Shown: piece after piece, positions 151 through 11,387 of the stretch | How positions within the stretch are numbered: position 1 is the stretch's first letter | Layout: each line of letters opens with the position of its first letter | Origin: Bacilli bacterium | GTDB lineage: Bacteria; Bacillota_I; Bacilli_A; ML615J-28; CAG-313 | Assembly: GCA_017501465.1 (NCBI GenBank) | Contig: JAFVWY010000012.1 | Location: 74,191-138,190, forward strand | Direction: 5' to 3' | DNA: 64,000 nt | The notes under the pieces: generated by a model | Database searches by the model: none | What the model was told of the DNA's origin: nothing | The model's input: the letters and a program-made list of their open reading frames with translations, nothing else | Position numbers and translations under genes: made by a program

Positions 151-1029
151 ATGCAATATACTATTAAAGATCAAAATACTATTGTTACAATTAACTCTAA
201 AGGAGCAGAATTAAAATCTTTCAATGTTAATGGAAAAGAGTTTATGCATGATGCTAATCCTAAATATTGGGGTAGAACTGCACCATATTTATTCCCTAAC
301 ATTGGTACAATTAAAGATGGTTATGTAACAATTGAAGGTAAAGATTACAAATTTTCAAAACATGGTTTCTTAAGAGATACTGAAATGGAACTTTATGAAC
401 AAAAAGAAAATTACATTTCTTTCATTCTTAATAGTTCTGAAGTTACTCTATCAAGCTTCCCATACGAATTCAAATTAATAATTAGCTATCTTTTAGAAGG
501 TCAAACTCTTACAGTTAAGCTATTTGTTAAAAATTGTGGTGAAAATCCGATGTATTTTAATTTTGGGCTACATCCAGCATTTAAAATTCCTTGGAATGAT
601 ACAGAAGCTTTTGAAGATTACAAGATAGATCTAGGTGAAGAAATTTCATCAAAACTTCCAACTGTTTTATTAGATAGTGGCTTAATTGATTGGAAACAAA
701 CTTATAAAGAATTTAATAATGTACGTGTAATCAAATTAGATCATGAAGATTACTCTCACGATGCATTATGTATAGAACCATATCCTAAACATGATATTAA
801 ACTAATTTCTCCTAGCAAAGAAAGCATTACATTATCTGCACCGGGATTTAAAACTTTAGGCATTTGGACTCCATATCCAAACAAAGCACCTTTTATTTGT
901 TTAGAACCTTGGTATGGATGTGCAGATAATCCTGAAACAGATCATAATTATTTAAATAAAAAAGATCTCATCAGATTAGAATCTAATGAGATCTGGTTAA
1001 ATACTTATCAATTAACTATTAATTGTTAA
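151..1029 (+). CDS. Aldose 1-epimerase family protein (LacX-like)
   Basis: The 292-residue product resembles LacX-type galactose mutarotase homologues, which interconvert alpha and beta anomers of sugars in the cytoplasm. Visible family features are the N-terminal GAELKSF segment, the HGFLRD motif near residue 70 and a central FGLHPAF segment carrying a His typical of the mutarotase beta-sandwich. The start at 151 is chosen over an in-frame ATG at 124 because AGGTGAT lies just upstream. It stands alone on the plus strand and its last 11 bases overlap the end of the convergent rsmH. No sugar operon adjoins it in the window, so the substrate is unknown. Confidence 0.85.
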   Translation: MQYTIKDQNTIVTINSKGAELKSFNVNGKEFMHDANPKYWGRTAPYLFPNIGTIKDGYVTIEGKDYKFSKHGFLRDTEMELYEQKENYISFILNSSEVTLSSFPYEFKLIISYLLEGQTLTVKLFVKNCGENPMYFNFGLHPAFKIPWNDTEAFEDYKIDLGEEISSKLPTVLLDSGLIDWKQTYKEFNNVRVIKLDHEDYSHDALCIEPYPKHDIKLISPSKESITLSAPGFKTLGIWTPYPNKAPFICLEPWYGCADNPETDHNYLNKKDLIRLESNEIWLNTYQLTINC

Positions 1030-1945
1030 TTCTTTCGATAACTCTTAATTTTGCACTATGTGAGCGATTATTGATTGCAAGTTCTTCTTGTGATGCAGTA
1101 ATCGCTTTTTTATTTACTAATTCAAAATCAATATGGTATCCTACTGGAATAATTGGTAAATCATGTGGTAAATCCAAAGTACATTTTTCTTTAAACATAT
1201 GTTTACAAATTCTATCTTCTAATGAGTGGAAGGTAATTACACATATTCTACCATTTTTATTTAATAAATCAAAAGCATCCATTAAAGACTTTCTAAATAC
1301 AATTAGTTCCTTGTTTACTTCAATTCTAATAGCTTGAAATGTTTTTTTAGCAGGATGTTTTTCTTTTCTTAAAACTGCAGCAGGTAAAGCACTTTTAATA
1401 ACTTCGACTAATTGATAAGTTGTTTCAATTGGTCTATTTTTAATGATCTTTTTGACGATAAGGCCAGCAAATTTTTCTTCGCCATATTCTAAAAGCACTT
1501 TGCGTAATTCATTTTCTGAATACATATTCACAACATCATACGCAGAAAAATCCTTTGTTTGATCCATTCTCATATCTAACGGCGCATCATGTTGGTAACT
1601 AAATCCACGTTCAGGAATATCTAATTGAAAACTAGAAACTCCTAAATCATATAAAATACCATCAACATGTGTAATACCCAGATTTTCTAAACCAGATTTA
1701 ATATTAACAAAATTATCTTGTATAATTGTAAAATTAGAACCTACTTCTTCTAATCTTTTTTTAGACTTTTCTATTACCATTTGATCTTGATCAAAACAAT
1801 ATAAATGACCCGTTGTTAATCTTTTTAATATTTCAGATGAATGTCCTGCTCCACCCATCGTACAATCAACATAAATACCATCTTTTTTAATATTTAGTCC
1901 TTCTATTGTTTCATTTAATAACACTGGTATATGTTTATATTCCAT
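1019..1945 (-). CDS. rsmH: 16S rRNA (cytosine-1402-N4)-methyltransferase RsmH
   Basis: RsmH (MraW) methylates N4 of C1402 in the decoding centre of 16S rRNA using S-adenosylmethionine. The 308-residue length is normal. The SAM-binding segment VDCTMGGAGHS is near residue 30, and the conserved C-terminal HSLEDR motif is followed by the SAKLR segment near the end. The ATG at 1945 is preferred because AAGGTGAT precedes it by the right distance; the frame extends five codons further. A good promoter lies upstream (1963-1991). In most Bacilli rsmH sits between mraZ and ftsL in the cell-division cluster; here it is alone, with no mraZ, ftsL or pbp beside it. Confidence 0.95.
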   Translation of the reverse strand: MEYKHIPVLLNETIEGLNIKKDGIYVDCTMGGAGHSSEILKRLTTGHLYCFDQDQMVIEKSKKRLEEVGSNFTIIQDNFVNIKSGLENLGITHVDGILYDLGVSSFQLDIPERGFSYQHDAPLDMRMDQTKDFSAYDVVNMYSENELRKVLLEYGEEKFAGLIVKKIIKNRPIETTYQLVEVIKSALPAAVLRKEKHPAKKTFQAIRIEVNKELIVFRKSLMDAFDLLNKNGRICVITFHSLEDRICKHMFKEKCTLDLPHDLPIIPVGYHIDFELVNKKAITASQEELAINNRSHSAKLRVIERINN

Positions 1946-1962
1946 AATATCACCTTCCATTT

Positions 1963-2048: not shown

Positions 2049-5000
2049 TTAGTCTCTTTCGTAAGCACCAGGAATGATAGAGTAAAGAGTTACAGTTTCA
2101 GTATTACCATTATTTGTTACAGTAACAGTATAAGAAACAGCTCTTGACATATCAGGTGTATTAATAACACGTCCGTTATCATCTACGAAATCTTTATCAT
2201 TAGATACACATGTAATTGTAGCATCTTTAAACTTAGTTAATAATTCATATTCAGCTTCAACTAATTCTAAGAATTTCCACCAAATACATAAATCATTTTC
2301 TAACATTGGTTGTGGACAATCTTTACCTGAGAAGAAATGATGTCCTCTTACTCTTGTAATATCAAGACCAAGTTCTTCCATTAATGAAGCTACTAATTGA
2401 GCAGTCATTTGCCATGTTAACCATAAGTCTGAACCTTGATTTACACATGATTCAATACCGATAGAGTTTCTATTACCACCAGTAGAACAAATTCTACCTT
2501 CGTAAACTTGAGTGTAGCACCACCAAGTAGTACCCATGTAATATTCACCATCAATAATAGTGAATGGTAAACTTTGATCATTAATAAATGATTCAGGAGT
2601 TCTATTTTGGAATCCAGATTGACCGAAGTCAGATTGAGATGAAATAGTACCATCAGCATTTAAGATATGATCAGTACCTCTTGAATCATAATCCCAAGGT
2701 CTTGGCATTGGAACACTAGTCTTAGCACCGTTAATTTCATAATAGAAATCATCAGAAATTGTGAATACTGGATATAATGGATCAGTAGCTTGAGCTTGAA
2801 CTCCTGTTGCAATCCATTGGAATGTACCAACTTGATCTAAAGCACCTGAGTCACCAGCATGCCATGCACCTAATTCATGAGGTAAGCATTGGAAGATACC
2901 ATCATTACCAGTTGTATAGTGAATAGATACAGCATTATCACCAATGAAGTATTTAGCATTAGCTTCTGAGTCAGCACCACTACTCATATTACCAGTGTAG
3001 TGAACAGTGATAAATTCAATTGAAGTCATAGCGTCGAAGTAATCGCCAGTTGCACCTGAGACTTCTCTATCTTTCAATGAATCATCAATTGTTAAATCAT
3101 GGTTAAATAAAATCTTATTAACACTTCCAAAGATATCCATGTAGTAAGTTGGAATACCAGCACCAATACCTAAATCCCAATCAGTGAATACATTACTTTC
3201 ATGAGAATCTAATACTAATTGTAATGCAGCAGAAATTTCGCTAGCTAATACAGTAACAGGGAATTCAAAGTAAACACTTGCATCACTTGCTAAAGCACAA
3301 CGAATAGTTGCAGTACCTTGAGCAATACCAAATACGTTACCATTTTCATCAACGTTAGCAATATTAGAATCAGAGCTTGTCCATACGTATGCTAATTCAG
3401 CATCAGCATAGTCTTCATATTCAGCATTTAATTTAATAGATTCATTGATACCAACATAAGAATTAGTTTCATATGAAGCTACGAAATGTCCTGGAGAATA
3501 TACAGTTAATTCAAATGAATAGTCAATAGTTCTGTTAGCATATACCTTAACAGTAATTGTAGTAGTACCATTACTCATAGCTGTAATTAAGCCTTTTAAT
3601 GAAGTAACAGTAGCAACTTCAGGGTTACTTGAGAAGAATTCAACAGATGGATCTGTAATATTATCTGGTGTCATACTCCATACTAATTGATATGTTTCAT
3701 ATCTCTTTAATGAAGTAGGATGTTCAACAGTAATAGTTTCAGGAATAATTTCAGGTTCCCATTTAGCATAGAATGTCTTATCCCCAGTATCTGTTGAATA
3801 AATATGAGTAATTGGAGTACCATTGTATTCAGGGTTATCATACCAGCCTAAGAAAGCTAGACCTTTATCATGTGTTAATAATGGTAATTCAGCTATTTGA
3901 CCACCTTGATATTGAGTCATGATTTCTTTTTCAATTTGAACAGCTTTAAACATCTTAGATAGGTAACCATTGAAATATGATTTACCAGTTGAACTCCAAG
4001 ATACGAATTGATATAATCTTACGAATGTTGCATAGTCATCTGTATAGAAGCTTTGGCCACTATTAACAGCTAACATTGCTTCATGGAAGATTGCAAAGAA
4101 TTCTTTCCATTTTGCATAATACTTAGGAACATTGAAGAAATATTCAGTAGAACCATCTTCTGCAGGGTAGTTACCTAAATCAGTATTTCTTAAATTGAAT
4201 CCTTCGTAAGATTTTAATTGAGCATCAATGTATGCATAATATTCTTCTCTAGATTTAGTAGTATATTCATTATCTGTTGCCCATTCATATAAATCAGCAT
4301 ATAATTCAGCAATGATTTCTTCTCTTGAAGCAGCGTCTCTAGTAGGGAAGCTACCTTTATCAGTTACAAATGTAACATCATAGAATTCACCTTCTAATAA
4401 TTGCCATTGAGCAACTAAATGTAAGTTACCACTAGCATCAGCAGGTAATTCAGTAACAACAGTACCATTATATGACCAACCTAAGAAATTATGGTTAGGT
4501 TTAGTTAATGTTGGTAATGCGATTACAGCACTATTAAATGAATTATATTTAGTAGTGAATGAATCATAAGTAGTTCCACCAGCTAAATCATAACTAATTG
4601 AATAGAAGTGTAATGGTTTAGCAGCTTCAAATGTAGGTTTAGAAGCCATTGCAGTTCCTTTATCAGCTACTTGTTTGAAGTAAGATTCATAAGCAGCTAA
4701 GTCAGTAATTACAGCACCATTATTATCTTCATAATAGTTAGCACCAAATTTAGCTAAAATAGGATTTTCAGTTGCATTAGTATCACTAGCATTCCATACA
4801 GCAAAGTAATTAGCAGCAGGAACACCATAGAATTCATTATTAGCAACCATTACATCCCAAGCATTAGCAGCATGGTTAGGAGCAGTAGCATTATTTCTGA
4901 ATCTGATGTAGTTTAGACATCCGTCAAATACGTTATCAGTAATATCTAGATCTAAACCTTTTTCTTGATAGTTTCTAGCACTAATTGCACCTGAATATAA

Positions 5001-8000
5001 TCCAGCGCTTGAAGTACCAATATTTTCGAACTTGTTGTTATCGATGATGATACGGCAACCAACACCAGCAGCACCACCATAAATTCTAAAGTAAATACCA
5101 TTGTATCCACCCATAGAATCTTGAACGAATTCATTATTAGTGAATGATAATAATCCACCAATATAACCGTTATTGAATCTGATTGCATCGTAACCAAAGT
5201 TATGGAATACGTTACCATCGAATGTAACATTAGTTACATAAGAAATATTTAAGTTATCATCAGCAACATTTTCAAATACGTTGTAATGGAATTGTAAGTT
5301 TTGACTTAATGTTGTATTAGATGATGAGATGTAAATAAAGCCAGCTTTATAAGCATTACTTTCAGCCCATGCACCTGCAGGAGCATTAGTGTCATAAACT
5401 TTATTGTTGATGAATGTGAAGTCTTCAACTTGTGTACCAGTAATCTTAGCAGCACCAGTGAATGCAACACCATCAATTGTTAAGCCAGTAGCAGATGTAG
5501 CAAGTGTAATAGCACCTGTAATAACTGCTTCTTGTCCTCTTGTAGCTTTAGCATTATTTAGGCCTGCATTTGGACCAGCAATTGTTAAATTAGCTACTGA
5601 GATTGTTAAAGCTTCATTATATGTACCTGGAAGTAAGATAATCTTATCGCCAGCTTTTGCAGCAGCTAAAGCTTCAGCAATTGTAGCATATAAGTATTCT
5701 TCTTCACCAGCACCTACATAAAGAGCATCTTCTCTCCATTGAGCTGTAAGTTTAATAGCACCTTGGATACCAGCTTCTAAACCAGTTACAAGTTTGCCTT
5801 CATAGTACCAACCTAAGAATACATGATTTTCATAAGTTGGAACTGGTAATTGTGATAAACCAGTAATCTTATTATAGTATTGAGCAGCATCTTCTGGTAA
5901 TTGACCACCGTTTAATTCATAATTAATTAATACTGAGTTTTCTAAGTCAACGAATTCAGGAAGATCTTCTAATTTTTCGATATATGGACTCCAAGTAGCA
6001 TTTAAGAATTTATCAGCAGTAGGAGTTTCATCATACCAGTTATTTGTAGCATCGATATTATAGCCGTTAGCATTGTTAACGAAATAAGTAGCGATACAAT
6101 TTAATAATTTATTGTAATGAACTGTAACGATTTGATTAGTTGCAGTTCTATTTTCACTCTTATCAAATCTAATTAATGAGAATGCATTATCAACAGTATT
6201 ATAACTGAAATCGATATTTACAAGACCATTTTCTTCACCAACATATGAAGCAAATCTAGCTGCACAGTGGCTAGCTGGAGTTTGACCACAGTTCTTGAAT
6301 GTGTTATTAACGATCTTATATGAACCTTCAGCATAACTAATTGCCCAAATTACATATTGAGTGTAATTTTCGAATAAGTTACCTTGGAATAATACATTAC
6401 CTTTAATACCAAATTCAGCTTTATTACCAGTTTCATTATCACTTGAATCAATCTTAACAGCGTCATTATATGTACCACCATTAGATGAGAAATGACAGCT
6501 AACAACTTTTAAGTTAACGATTTGGGCACCATAGAATGCCATTGGACGTCCACTAGCACCTTCGTATCTTAAATTGATTAATTCAACATTTTCAAAGTAT
6601 ACACCAGCTTCAACAGTATGTAGATGAATTGGAGCTGTATAACTATCAGATGAAGTTGGGTTAAGAGTAGAAGCATATGAATATACGTTCTTAACTACTA
6701 AGTTCTTAGCACCAGTAGCAGCATTACCAATAATGCGGCCTTTACCAATTAATTTAATACCATCAATTGTTACATTATCAGCTGAGATAATAACATCAGC
6801 ATTAAATGAAGCTTCAGGTAATCTTTCAGCATCATTAGGGTTAACACCAGCATTTGGACCAGCTAATGTAACACCTTTAGTGATTTCAACACCGCCCCAT
6901 GCGCCAGCGCATACAACGATAGTATCACCAGTATTAGCAGCTTCTAAAGCAGCTTCAATTGAATCATAGCATTCAGGATCTTCAGGATTTACATAAAGAA
7001 CCTTAGTTTCACCTTCTTCAATGATTTCTTCCCATTTAGCAACTAATACATAGTCTTTATTAGTAATAGCTGATACTTGAGTCTTATCTTCGTACCAACC
7101 TAAGAAATTATAACCTTCTCTTACAGGGTTTAATAATTGAACTTCTTCGTTCCAACCAAATTCAACAGTTGGAGTTTCACCTTCAGCCCATTCACCACCG
7201 TTTAAATCATAAGAGATAGTATATCTTACTGTAGCTAAATCTAACCATTGAGCAACAAGAGTCCAATTACCTCTAACTTTAGTGATAATTTCACCATCAT
7301 GAGCCCAACCTAAGAATAAATTACCATCTTTAATTGGAGTAGGTAAAGTTTCTTTAGCTGTAAATGTTAAATCTTGAGATGCAGCTGTATATTCAGCAAT
7401 AAATCTTGCCATATTTTCAGCATTTGAATAGTCAACCATGAACTTGTCATATAAACCTGTACCAGTACGTTTAGTTGAATTGATTAAACCTTCAATCCAC
7501 CAACGTAAAGCAGTTCTACCATCAGCGTAACTACCACCTACTGCAGCAGTATCACCAGCGATCATCTTTTCTAACATTTCTTTAGTATTTATAAAGGCAG
7601 CTTCTGATGTAACACCTTGAAGAGTAGCTTCATTTGTCATTTCTTCTAAAGCAAATTCTAAGAACCATTTATAAGTAGCAAGATTTTCAGCTTTATTAAA
7701 TACATATTTAATATTTGGATGAGTAGTACCTTTAAAGTTTTCTCTAGTTGTTGTTAATGCATCACTTGCACCAGTTGAATTGAATAAATCAACGATTTCT
7801 TTTGCAAATGTATCTATAGTAACACCAGCAAATGAACCACCGTTTAAATCAAATTCTACTGTCCATTCATAATCATCTACATGAATCCATTGAGCAACTA
7901 ATACATCATCTCCAGTAGCATATTCAACCTTTTCACCATCTAAGAACCAACCTAAGAAGAAATGGTCTTCTTTAATAGCAGTTGGTAAAGCTTGTCCTGG

Positions 8001-11000
8001 TTCAATTGTACGTTCAACTGGACCAAATACAGCATCAAATCTAGCAAAATTAGAAGCTTTAGAATAATCAATAACTAATTTATCATATGTTGCACGGCCA
8101 GTAGGTAATTTTTTATTAATTAAACCTTCTAACCAGTAACGTAAGATAGTTCTTCCGTTTGCATATGAACCACCAATAGCAGTAGTATCACCAGCAATCA
8201 TCTTTTCTAACATTTCTTTAACTTCTGTATAGTAAGATGAGCTTGTAGCACCATTGTTAGTAACAGCAATAGTGATTTCTTGTAATGCGAATTCTAATAA
8301 CCATTGATATTTAGCTAAGTTTTCAGAATTGTTAAATACATATTTAACATTTGGATGAGTAGTTCCACAGAAGTCTTCTCTTGTAGTTACAACTGCATCA
8401 GATTTACCAGTATTATTGAAATCATATAGTAAATCAGTAACAAATGCTTCGAAACTATATTCCCAAGTACCGCCATTTAAGTCAAAAATAACTTCATAAC
8501 CAGTTTGAGTATTAGATTTCCATTTAGCAACTAATTCATAATCAGCATTTTCAATTTCAGTAACATATTTACTTAATTGAGTCCAACCTAAGAATGTGTA
8601 ACCTTCTTTTACAGGAGTTGGAAGAGTTACTTCTTGATTGTATTCGAATTCAACTACGCCTTCTTGACCTTCAGCCCAAGCACCACCAACTAAGTCGTAA
8701 GAAATTTCAAATTTGATAATTTCCCATTCAGCTACTAATGTTTGGTTTCCTGTAGCGTGTTCTACTTTTTGACCATCTAAGAACCAACCTTGGAAGATAT
8801 AACCTTCTTTTTCAGCTTTTGGTAATTGATCATTAATAGTTAATTCAAATACACCACAAGCTGCATAGTAAGCTTCCATGAATCTAGCCATGTTTTCAGC
8901 AACTGCGTAATCAACCATGTACTTATCATATAAACCAGTACCAGTACGTTTAGTTTCATTGATTAAACCTTCAATCCACCAACGTAAAGCAGTTCTACCA
9001 TCAGCGTAACTACCACCTACAGCAGCAGTATCACCAGCAATCATCTTTTCTAACATTTCTTTAGTATTAATGAATGCATCTTCTCCTGTAGCAGCATTTG
9101 CTGTAGCAGCATTAGTCATTTCTTCTAAAGCAAATTCTAAGAACCATCTGTATTCATCTAATGTTTCAGTGTTATTGAAAACATATTTAATATTTGGATG
9201 AGAAGTAGCTTTAAATGTTTCTTTTAAAGTAGTAACAGCATCAGATTTACCAGTAGAATTGAATAATTCAATTAAAGCAGTAGTGAAATCAGCTAATGTT
9301 AAGCCTTCAATTGAACCACCTTGAGCATCAAATTGAACTTTGTATACTTCTTCTTTCCATTCAGCAACTAATGTACAATCGCCAGAAATAGATTCTACTT
9401 TAGTACCGTTTTCAAACCAACCTAAGAATACATAACCAGGTCTAGAAGCAACTGGTAAAGTATCTTCAACAGTTAATTTGCTTGAAGGCATTTGTTCACC
9501 TTGAGCAGCAAAGAATCTTTCTTGATTTTCAGCAATTGAGTAGTCAACTAAGAAATGATCATAAACACCAGAACCACTAGGTAATTTAGAATTGATTAAG
9601 CCTTCAATCCAACAACGGAATCCAGTTCTTCCATCAGCATACGCACCACCAATAGCAGTAGTATCACCAGCGATCATCTTTTCTAACATTTCTTTAGTAT
9701 TCTTAAATGCATCTTCAGATAAAGCACCTTGACGAGTAGCTTCATTAACCATTTCTTCTAATGCAAATTCTAAGAACCATTTATATTTAGCTAAAGTTTC
9801 AGCATTATTAAATACATATTTAATATTTGGATGAGATGTTGATTTAAAGTTTTCTCTAGTTGTAGTAACCGCATCAGATTTGCCTGTTGCATTAAATAAA
9901 TCAACTAATTCTTTTGCGAAATCATCAATAGATTGAACAGTTTCAACATAATCAGTTCCATCATTATAATTGAATTTAACAGTGTATTGAGTTAATTTCC
10001 AAACAGCAACTAAAGTAACATCACCAGATGTACCAGCAGCAATTTCCTTAACAGCAACACCATTTAATTGCCATTCAACGAATTCATAATGTTCTCTTAC
10101 AGGAGCGTCTAAAACAACAGCTTCATTATAAGTATATTTAACAGGGTTAGAACTAGAATTTTCTCCACCAGCTAAATCATAAGTAACATTATAAACTTTG
10201 CCTGTAAATTTAGCATATAAACAAGTGATTTCTAAATTTTGTGCATTTAATTCAGTAACAGCTTCGCCACTGAAATCAGCATTAGCATACCAACCAACGA
10301 AATCGTAATTTGCAAGTTCAGCTTGTGGTAAAACGAACGCTGCATCTTCAATTGTTCTAGCAGTTGGTAATGTTGCAGAAACTAAACCACCATTTAATTC
10401 AAAACTAATTGGATAAGAGATTACTTCCCAAGTTGCAACAAGAGTAATTTCTCCCATCATACCTTCGATTTTTTCAATTGGATTACCTTCATATGTCCAG
10501 CCTTTGAATGAGTAACCAGCTTTTTCAGCAGCCACTAATTCTACAACTTCTCCAAATGCATATTGACTTGGATTTGGATTAGAAGTAGCTCCTGCTAAAT
10601 CGTAAGTAATATCATATTTAGTAGGAACAAAGCAAGCATATAGATTAGTAATATCTAAATTTTCATGATTTAAAAGAACTACTGGTTCACCAGTAAATTC
10701 AGGATCTTCAAACCATCCAACAAAATCATGTCCGTGCATAGTAGCTTGTGGTAAAGTGTAAGCTACATCTTCGATATTTCTTTCTGTTGGAAGTTGAACT
10801 GAAACAGAACCGCCATTTAATTCAAAAGCGATTGGATATTCAATAATTTCCCATGCTGCATAGAAAGTTAAGTTTTCTTTAACTTCTTTAATAGAAGTAA
10901 CTACTTCTCCTTCTAACTCAGCATTGTCATAGAAACCTTTAAATACATAACCTTCTCTAACTGGTTGAGTAAGTGCAATTTCTCCAGCACCTTCTACATA

Positions 11001-11387
11001 TTCAACCACTAAAGGATTATTAGTATCTTCTACACCATTATTAAGAACATAATCAATAACATAAACATATCTATTACGAACAATAATATGTCTAATATCT
11101 TTATCTTCTCCTAATGTTGCAGTAAGGTTAAATGAACCTTCGGCAATAGGGACAATTTTGCCATCAACGAATTCAACAACTTCATTGTTGTCGATACTCC
11201 ATTCTACTTCAGAAGCACTACCACTTAAAACATTAACTTTAAGTTCGTATTCTTCTCCTAAGTACATAACTCTTTCCATGTCAATTGAAAGAGGTTTTTC
11301 ATTTGTAGAAAATTGACAACCGATAAGCGCAACTAAACTTATGGCACCAACAGCTACAAACATAAAAAAGCGTTTAAGTAACTTCAT
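2049..11387 (-). CDS. Giant modular surface lipoprotein with InlB B-repeats, beta-helices and a C-terminal PGRP/amidase_2 domain
   Basis: The 3112-residue protein starts with a lipoprotein signal (lipobox LIGC, Cys24) and an Ig-like (BIG2) domain. About 14 InlB B-repeats (GYxFxGW, LVAxW) follow. Five copies of a roughly 150-residue helical module are inserted in loops of these repeats at about residues 486-632, 696-848, 977-1122, 1187-1337 and, diverged, 2347-2499. Two right-handed beta-helix domains (about 1459-1790 and 1887-2232) begin with a YxSIxxALxAAxxGDTI-like motif. Two BIG2 domains (about 2547-2712) precede an N-acetylmuramoyl-L-alanine amidase type 2 domain whose zinc ligands should be His2796, His3016 and Cys3024 (T7 lysozyme pattern). 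It is probably membrane-anchored, cutting peptidoglycan while binding surface or host polymers; the target is inferred only. AAGGAGG precedes the ATG. The gene looks less AT-rich than its neighbours, which may reflect strong expression. Confidence 0.9.
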   Translation of the reverse strand: MKLLKRFFMFVAVGAISLVALIGCQFSTNEKPLSIDMERVMYLGEEYELKVNVLSGSASEVEWSIDNNEVVEFVDGKIVPIAEGSFNLTATLGEDKDIRHIIVRNRYVYVIDYVLNNGVEDTNNPLVVEYVEGAGEIALTQPVREGYVFKGFYDNAELEGEVVTSIKEVKENLTFYAAWEIIEYPIAFELNGGSVSVQLPTERNIEDVAYTLPQATMHGHDFVGWFEDPEFTGEPVVLLNHENLDITNLYACFVPTKYDITYDLAGATSNPNPSQYAFGEVVELVAAEKAGYSFKGWTYEGNPIEKIEGMMGEITLVATWEVISYPISFELNGGLVSATLPTARTIEDAAFVLPQAELANYDFVGWYANADFSGEAVTELNAQNLEITCLYAKFTGKVYNVTYDLAGGENSSSNPVKYTYNEAVVLDAPVREHYEFVEWQLNGVAVKEIAAGTSGDVTLVAVWKLTQYTVKFNYNDGTDYVETVQSIDDFAKELVDLFNATGKSDAVTTTRENFKSTSHPNIKYVFNNAETLAKYKWFLEFALEEMVNEATRQGALSEDAFKNTKEMLEKMIAGDTTAIGGAYADGRTGFRCWIEGLINSKLPSGSGVYDHFLVDYSIAENQERFFAAQGEQMPSSKLTVEDTLPVASRPGYVFLGWFENGTKVESISGDCTLVAEWKEEVYKVQFDAQGGSIEGLTLADFTTALIELFNSTGKSDAVTTLKETFKATSHPNIKYVFNNTETLDEYRWFLEFALEEMTNAATANAATGEDAFINTKEMLEKMIAGDTAAVGGSYADGRTALRWWIEGLINETKRTGTGLYDKYMVDYAVAENMARFMEAYYAACGVFELTINDQLPKAEKEGYIFQGWFLDGQKVEHATGNQTLVAEWEIIKFEISYDLVGGAWAEGQEGVVEFEYNQEVTLPTPVKEGYTFLGWTQLSKYVTEIENADYELVAKWKSNTQTGYEVIFDLNGGTWEYSFEAFVTDLLYDFNNTGKSDAVVTTREDFCGTTHPNVKYVFNNSENLAKYQWLLEFALQEITIAVTNNGATSSSYYTEVKEMLEKMIAGDTTAIGGSYANGRTILRYWLEGLINKKLPTGRATYDKLVIDYSKASNFARFDAVFGPVERTIEPGQALPTAIKEDHFFLGWFLDGEKVEYATGDDVLVAQWIHVDDYEWTVEFDLNGGSFAGVTIDTFAKEIVDLFNSTGASDALTTTRENFKGTTHPNIKYVFNKAENLATYKWFLEFALEEMTNEATLQGVTSEAAFINTKEMLEKMIAGDTAAVGGSYADGRTALRWWIEGLINSTKRTGTGLYDKFMVDYSNAENMARFIAEYTAASQDLTFTAKETLPTPIKDGNLFLGWAHDGEIITKVRGNWTLVAQWLDLATVRYTISYDLNGGEWAEGETPTVEFGWNEEVQLLNPVREGYNFLGWYEDKTQVSAITNKDYVLVAKWEEIIEEGETKVLYVNPEDPECYDSIEAALEAANTGDTIVVCAGAWGGVEITKGVTLAGPNAGVNPNDAERLPEASFNADVIISADNVTIDGIKLIGKGRIIGNAATGAKNLVVKNVYSYASTLNPTSSDSYTAPIHLHTVEAGVYFENVELINLRYEGASGRPMAFYGAQIVNLKVVSCHFSSNGGTYNDAVKIDSSDNETGNKAEFGIKGNVLFQGNLFENYTQYVIWAISYAEGSYKIVNNTFKNCGQTPASHCAARFASYVGEENGLVNIDFSYNTVDNAFSLIRFDKSENRTATNQIVTVHYNKLLNCIATYFVNNANGYNIDATNNWYDETPTADKFLNATWSPYIEKLEDLPEFVDLENSVLINYELNGGQLPEDAAQYYNKITGLSQLPVPTYENHVFLGWYYEGKLVTGLEAGIQGAIKLTAQWREDALYVGAGEEEYLYATIAEALAAAKAGDKIILLPGTYNEALTISVANLTIAGPNAGLNNAKATRGQEAVITGAITLATSATGLTIDGVAFTGAAKITGTQVEDFTFINNKVYDTNAPAGAWAESNAYKAGFIYISSSNTTLSQNLQFHYNVFENVADDNLNISYVTNVTFDGNVFHNFGYDAIRFNNGYIGGLLSFTNNEFVQDSMGGYNGIYFRIYGGAAGVGCRIIIDNNKFENIGTSSAGLYSGAISARNYQEKGLDLDITDNVFDGCLNYIRFRNNATAPNHAANAWDVMVANNEFYGVPAANYFAVWNASDTNATENPILAKFGANYYEDNNGAVITDLAAYESYFKQVADKGTAMASKPTFEAAKPLHFYSISYDLAGGTTYDSFTTKYNSFNSAVIALPTLTKPNHNFLGWSYNGTVVTELPADASGNLHLVAQWQLLEGEFYDVTFVTDKGSFPTRDAASREEIIAELYADLYEWATDNEYTTKSREEYYAYIDAQLKSYEGFNLRNTDLGNYPAEDGSTEYFFNVPKYYAKWKEFFAIFHEAMLAVNSGQSFYTDDYATFVRLYQFVSWSSTGKSYFNGYLSKMFKAVQIEKEIMTQYQGGQIAELPLLTHDKGLAFLGWYDNPEYNGTPITHIYSTDTGDKTFYAKWEPEIIPETITVEHPTSLKRYETYQLVWSMTPDNITDPSVEFFSSNPEVATVTSLKGLITAMSNGTTTITVKVYANRTIDYSFELTVYSPGHFVASYETNSYVGINESIKLNAEYEDYADAELAYVWTSSDSNIANVDENGNVFGIAQGTATIRCALASDASVYFEFPVTVLASEISAALQLVLDSHESNVFTDWDLGIGAGIPTYYMDIFGSVNKILFNHDLTIDDSLKDREVSGATGDYFDAMTSIEFITVHYTGNMSSGADSEANAKYFIGDNAVSIHYTTGNDGIFQCLPHELGAWHAGDSGALDQVGTFQWIATGVQAQATDPLYPVFTISDDFYYEINGAKTSVPMPRPWDYDSRGTDHILNADGTISSQSDFGQSGFQNRTPESFINDQSLPFTIIDGEYYMGTTWWCYTQVYEGRICSTGGNRNSIGIESCVNQGSDLWLTWQMTAQLVASLMEELGLDITRVRGHHFFSGKDCPQPMLENDLCIWWKFLELVEAEYELLTKFKDATITCVSNDKDFVDDNGRVINTPDMSRAVSYTVTVTNNGNTETVTLYSIIPGAYERD
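7375..9930 (-). repeat. Four long imperfect coding repeats of the helical insert module
   Basis: Within the giant gene, four segments of about 440 bases (about 9490-9930, 8845-9300, 8020-8455, 7375-7825) encode the same module, with motifs such as GKSDAV, HPNIKYVFNN, FALEEM, EMLEKMIAGDT and WIEGLIN. Stretches around the EMLEKMIAGD codons are nearly identical at DNA level. The spacing is about 630, 845 and 630 bases, so duplication of module plus B-repeat units is likely. Confidence 0.85.

Follow-up and report, generated by a model that had tools for sequence, protein, structure and literature searches.

The lipoprotein gene

The DNA analysed here (the window) is a stretch of 64,000 nucleotides from an uncultured member of the Bacilli (assembly GCA_017501465.1, contig JAFVWY010000012.1, positions 74,191 to 138,190). 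It encodes a giant surface lipoprotein of an uncultured Anaeroplasma-like bacterium, in which InlB-type B-repeats are interrupted by helical inserts and which ends in an Amidase_2 domain (Table 1). The protein also carries two Big_2 domains and two stretches that, by eye, are beta-helix-like. Over its whole length it scores 288 bits with PF09479. Weak matches of the whole protein to the Exo70, NigD and Pyr_excise models of Pfam were rejected as chance, being below the cut-off and inconsistent between copies.

Four of the B-repeats are interrupted by the helical module (M1 to M4), each by 147–150 residues. This agrees with a preliminary description of the sequence, whose coordinates for the region, 7375–9930, are correct to within 2 bases. 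The landmarks by which the module was recognised there (among them GKSDAV, FALEEM and WIEGLIN) are all found in all four copies, with slight changes to GASDAL in M4 and to FALQEI and WLEGLIN in M3. The divergent fifth insert, M5, occupies the same insertion site, its host being the last B-repeat ahead of the Big_2-Amidase_2 end of the protein.

The four copies M1 to M4 share 56–74% pairwise identity. Invariant columns number 67 out of 145 ungapped in the insert and 15 out of 62 in the scaffold (Fisher p = 0.003, a test that treats alignment columns as independent). Pairwise dN/dS is 0.39–0.66 at a dS of 0.44–0.63, therefore M1 to M4 are under purifying selection and are real coding sequence rather than chance. 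Enough time has passed for the copies to diverge, and selection has constrained the insert more strongly than its host repeat. The greater conservation of the insert and the purifying selection acting upon it speak for a functional part of the protein.

Table 1. Positions of the lipoprotein gene, its features and the adjacent rsmH gene in the window
Feature	Position	Strand	Remarks
Lipoprotein, 3112 aa, single open frame	2049..11387	(-)	14 recognisable B-repeats, 5 with inserts
Signal sequence, lipobox LIGC, residues 1-24	11316..11387	(-)	From reading of the sequence
Helical insert M1, residues 486-633	9489..9932	(-)	Whole inserted B-repeat 9357-9986
Helical insert M2, residues 697-846	8850..9299	(-)	Whole inserted B-repeat 8724-9344
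Helical insert M3, residues 978-1124	8016..8456	(-)	Whole inserted B-repeat 7887-8498
Helical insert M4, residues 1190-1338	7374..7820	(-)	Whole inserted B-repeat 7245-7865
Divergent fifth insert M5, residues 2354-2498	3894..4328	(-)	Whole repeat 3759-4382
Big_2, best stretch residues 2552-2613	3549..3734	(-)	Between last inserted B-repeat and amidase
Amidase_2, two aligned stretches	2307..3026	(-)	Motifs VHYTG, GHHF and KDCP present
rsmH (TIGR00006, above cut-off)	1019..1960	(-)	88 bases downstream of lipoprotein gene, same strand

Predicted structure of the inserted repeat

The structure of M2 with its scaffold was predicted with AlphaFold2 from an alignment of 35 inserted repeats (pLDDT 90.7, pTM 0.83). 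In the model a strand at residues 2–6 is followed by helices at 17–30, 52–56, 59–64, 66–82, 89–102, 114–128 and 149–163, after which come strands at 165–167, 186–189, 192–194 and 201–206. The lowest-scored stretch is the loop behind the first helix (pLDDT about 70). A model of a Bacteroidales member (pLDDT 92.5) shows the same succession: beta1, helices, beta2, beta3, beta4. The insert is thus predicted to form its own helical bundle, set in the beta1-beta2 turn of the B-repeat. The models support the view taken at the outset, of a helical module that is distinct from its scaffold and some 150 residues long, as the predicted fold is not a continuation of the beta-sheet. The site had been given as a single B-repeat loop lying after the first strand and ahead of the LPxP strand. 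The loop is indeed always the same in this protein, but the position is refined to the beta1-beta2 turn, with a short beta2 (FELTIND) between the insert and the LPxP..F.GW part.

The scaffold is that of the InlB B-repeat, or Listeria-Bacteroides repeat (PF09479 Flg_new, TIGR02543; structure 2y5p), whose beta1-beta2 turn is enlarged in the inserted repeats by approximately 120–150 helical residues. The InlB B-repeat itself has no helix at beta1-beta2 and none of the usual beta-grasp helix at beta2-beta3, and the beta2 strand with its adjoining loop has been proposed as the binding patch of this helix-free repeat (PMC8900821). Foldseek searches of the PDB with the M2 and Bacteroidales models gave no matches at E <= 0.001 (best E 1.1 and 1.2), and a search of viral protein models with M2 likewise gave none. 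The top two PDB matches of the Bacteroidales model, both non-significant, were InlB B-repeats (E 1.2–1.7), aligned over 54 columns that correspond to the scaffold. The predicted fold of the insert is therefore not found among solved structures.

A family of helical inserts

No model for the insert is present in Pfam, NCBIfam, PHROG or PADLOC, where the best E-values were about 0.02 or worse and at the level of chance. The earlier remark that no family was known for the module is borne out to the extent that none of the named domains in these libraries matched it with confidence. Of the 35 inserted repeats, 34 match PF09479 at E <= 0.1 in the B-repeat part only. M2 with its scaffold reaches 27.6 bits (cut-off 27) through its C-terminal half alone (residues 173–205). 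The insert has stayed hidden because the domain libraries score only this half of an interrupted repeat. In a search of open-access papers, no description was found of a helical insert in B-repeats, including those preceding an amidase.

A profile of M1 to M4 found no relatives in the contigs of named genomes or in viral contigs. A search of genomes of the window's family revealed one copy in G008, a species belonging to the window's genus, and a partial copy in another genus (G007). These relatives allowed a wider profile to be made, and the view of M1 to M4 as an orphan module was then dropped. A match in G004 (L009) was rejected as noise, since no surrounding long open frame resembles the module.

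Many further inserts in the B-repeats of the window's family have a KWxWL helix in common, and these sit in the same B-repeat loop as M1 to M4. Comparison by hhalign of M1 to M4 and the G008 copy with 12 other inserts gave a probability of 97% (E 3e-11, 119 columns), or 94.7% when the G008 copy was left out. From these profile alignments it is well supported that M1 to M4 and the KWxWL inserts belong to one domain family, which is undescribed although its B-repeat scaffold is known. Its members are predicted to be B-repeats (beta-grasp-like) with an all-helical bundle of 120–150 residues at the beta1-beta2 turn.

The M5-type inserts form a second group (M5 and 34 relatives), also found adjoining Big_2-Amidase_2. 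The 34-member M5 profile aligned with the first group at a probability of 32% over just 29 columns. Homology of the two groups is suggestive but unproven.

Distribution of the module

A sample of 395 Bacilli genomes was scanned with the wider profile, and 38 of them contain the module. The window's family accounts for 14 of these (out of 15 sampled), the sister family for 16 (out of 28) and the rest for 8; 30 of the 38 are in the window's order. The scan of named genomes added an Anaeroplasma bactoclasticum metagenome-assembled genome, uncultured Bacilli and Acholeplasma, as well as the Bacteroidales families Paludibacteraceae, Dysgonomonadaceae and Prevotellaceae. The family is thus found in bacteria of two phyla.

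The surroundings of 80 distinct copies from fetched loci were assessed by scoring the signatures of flanking B-repeats with regular expressions. These loci were chosen for holding the module, so counts from them carry that selection. The restriction of the module to B-repeats, raised in the preliminary description, applies to most copies (about 70 of the 80) but not to all. Several of the approximately 10 copies without a B-repeat signature are merely at contig or locus ends. A clear exception is L084 (Prevotellaceae), where the module comes directly after the signal sequence and outside a B-repeat. In L131 / L109 (G006 C28) it lies inside another extracellular beta domain, with no B-repeat. 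Three GHL10 glycosidases carry the module (L133, L134 and L127), and any B-repeat there is degenerate. In these three the helical module is preceded by a C-terminal 'GASIRT...GLRFY' domain.

Two other kinds of protein differ in length and in the position of the inserted repeat. Conserved proteins of approximately 425 aa in seven loci (L118–L124; genomes G026, G031, G032, G022, G024, G025 and G107) consist of two inserted B-repeats, the first with an M5-type and the second with a KWxWL-type insert. They begin at the repeat without a visible signal sequence and may be cytoplasmic. In the Bacteroidales proteins of approximately 830 aa (L073–L085) the inserted B-repeat is the first domain behind the signal sequence, followed by a region that is OB-like by eye and that has no Pfam match in L073.

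Association with Amidase_2 and cell wall genes

The C-terminal domain of the window protein is predicted to be an Amidase_2 enzyme (PF01510, 64.4 bits against a cut-off of 26), and motifs of the metal-ligand type (HYTG, GHH and KxCP) are found in it. The other scanned module-bearing proteins of the window's family all have a C-terminal Amidase_2 (8 out of 8, two being from the window's own genome and some being cut at the contig end), as does one from another family. In ten open reading frames, among them that of the window protein and some that are orthologues, the position of the amidase could be fixed from its motifs. In all ten the last B-repeat ahead of the amidase has an insert, which is of the KWxWL type in five and of the M5 type in five. 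Surface proteins with an Amidase_2 tail, Big_2 and B-repeats are known and have the same overall architecture as the window protein and its relatives; the latter differ in having the helical insert in the repeats ahead of the amidase.

Beyond rsmH there is an oppositely oriented galM-like gene, then genes for a SpoVD-like penicillin-binding protein (PBP) and an ABC-F protein, then murE, mraY and murD. The cluster of rsmH, PBP, ABC-F, murE, mraY and murD lies at 1019–1960 of the window and G000:C6:66886-74233 (L139 8887-16234). The murD, mraY, murE and rsmH matches are above their own cut-offs and that of SpoVD is below its own. The murG gene was set aside as a wall marker, as its model also matches archaeal controls and is ambiguous, and mraY with the mur cluster was used instead. 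With such a mur cluster in its genome, the organism probably makes peptidoglycan. This agrees with the reported presence of mur genes in 40–60% of genomes of the Anaeroplasmataceae, some species of which may have a wall or form spores (PMC10868615).

A second case of such placement is seen in G010, of another genus, where three tandem secreted amidases with inserts (1336–1566 aa) are directly upstream of rsmH (L140 2907-16392). By eye, a domain resembling 'GASIRT...GLRFY' opens these amidases. In the other genomes compared, no Amidase_2 match was found near rsmH.

Proposed function of the inserts

The insert, its predicted fold, its family, its conservation and its links to Amidase_2 and to a cell wall locus are observations made by computation, and a function can be proposed beside them. 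The leading reading, with chances judged to be about even, is that the module serves extracellular (envelope) hydrolases as a binding or positioning module. The lipid anchor would fix the N-terminus of the protein to the membrane, and the B-repeats and beta-helices would build a stalk. The inserted helical domains would then bind a wall or glycan ligand and keep the amidase at its substrate, with the four copies raising avidity. The C-terminal Amidase_2 would cut peptidoglycan, probably that of the cell itself. The link to enzymes is drawn because of the Amidase_2 tails, the placement of an insert next to the amidase in every one of the ten frames and the GHL10 glycosidases that carry the module. 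The cell's own wall is suggested as the target because the gene adjoins rsmH and the PBP-murE-mraY-murD cluster, and because the G010 amidases are upstream of rsmH.

In some wall hydrolases the wall is bound by a separate domain, SH3b or LysM for example. These enzymes likewise combine a catalytic domain with repeated non-catalytic extracellular modules, and by this analogy the inserts may be binding modules as well. No SH3b or LysM domain was detected in the window protein by the domain-library scan.

A more specific reading is put forward tentatively. The inserts may constitute a new wall- or glycan-binding family, of a fold unseen in solved structures and built as a helical bundle in the beta1-beta2 hairpin, that is common to Acholeplasmatales-type Mycoplasmatota and Bacteroidales and aims envelope hydrolases at their substrate.

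Several points weigh against a role in binding for envelope hydrolases. That the inserts bind a ligand, which ligand this would be and what several copies would add are all inferred. Placement beside rsmH is seen in two genomes only, and the share of amidases comes from loci chosen by the module and is not a genome-wide rate. The window's genome has module-bearing proteins without an amidase tail (one is of 397 aa, for example), and several Amidase_2 genes are short (354–659 aa) and were outside the module scan. The apparently signal-less proteins with two inserts are ill-suited to a role in the envelope.

A plain stalk is an equally possible use of the repeats and the main rival of the binding reading. 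The insert would then only thicken and stiffen a stalk that lifts the amidase off the membrane, with no binding. Flg_new has been treated as a stalk domain in work on fibrillar adhesins (PMC9210967), and tandem repeats, Big_2 and beta-helices are all stalk-like. The conservation of the insert, however, exceeds that of its scaffold, and many relatives have just one or two inserts in a fixed place adjoining the enzyme. Nor is a stalk expected from the Bacteroidales group in which the inserted module is the first domain behind the signal sequence. A purely structural role is therefore considered rather doubtful.

The amidase and its modules might instead be directed at other bacteria, in competition or feeding, rather than at the cell's own wall. 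Cultured Anaeroplasma are wall-less. The Anaeroplasmataceae have served as a peptidoglycan-deficient reference family, although mur genes are present in the share of genomes given above (PMC10868615). That a wall-less cell lyses other bacteria with this amidase is weakened by the mraY, murE and murD genes, all above their cut-offs, and the SpoVD-like PBP that adjoin the lipoprotein gene. An attack on foreign walls is thus improbable.

Host recognition, the role first suggested for the module, is slightly less probable again. Here the helical modules would bind the mucus or epithelium of a host, for which it can be said that the protein is a surface lipoprotein and that the record titles of many named relatives refer to animal gut or faecal samples. 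The module is linked instead to peptidoglycan amidases and the cell wall gene cluster, and it is found in a GHL10 glycosidase and in the apparently signal-less proteins of approximately 425 aa. In addition, the carriers Paludibacter scnpilot, Acholeplasma AS05jafATM and Bacilli STF1 look non-host, their habitat being inferred from titles.

Significance for B-repeat annotation

B-repeats are common surface repeats that are poorly understood; the B repeat has been called arguably the least understood domain of InlB (PMC8900821). The inserted version, which is widespread and has a large conserved insert, is a defined and testable unit. Proteins annotated as 'InlB B-repeat-containing protein' could be split into those with plain stalk repeats and those with putative binding repeats. 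The locus also points to unusual lipoprotein amidases beside cell wall genes in a group that is usually called wall-less.

Inheritance of the inserts

In a tree of 38 rows, M1 to M4 form one clade (99/98 support), as they do together with the G008 copy (100/99). Support is poor for the deeper branches, which are long. Comparison of the C-terminal halves of the repeats in the window protein gave a mean score of 78.8 for inserted repeats among themselves and 56.3 for these against plain repeats, the inserted set being M1, M2, M3 and M5, without M4. Since inserted repeats resemble one another more closely in their scaffold halves, insert and scaffold have been duplicated as a whole unit. The difference is absent in other proteins, which fits an older divergence.

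It had been suggested that the module is mobile, in which case it would spread by itself into B-repeat loops. The identical site in many B-repeats and in two phyla, with few copies elsewhere, could be taken in this way, but it is very improbable given the single clade of M1 to M4, the scaffold duplicated along with the insert, the lack of any match in searches of phages, plasmids and viral contigs with the module, and the conserved order of copies between species. The history of the module looks like one of vertical inheritance and local duplication, with diversification in the window's order. Orthologous copies are found in the same order across species of one genus (L069–L072).

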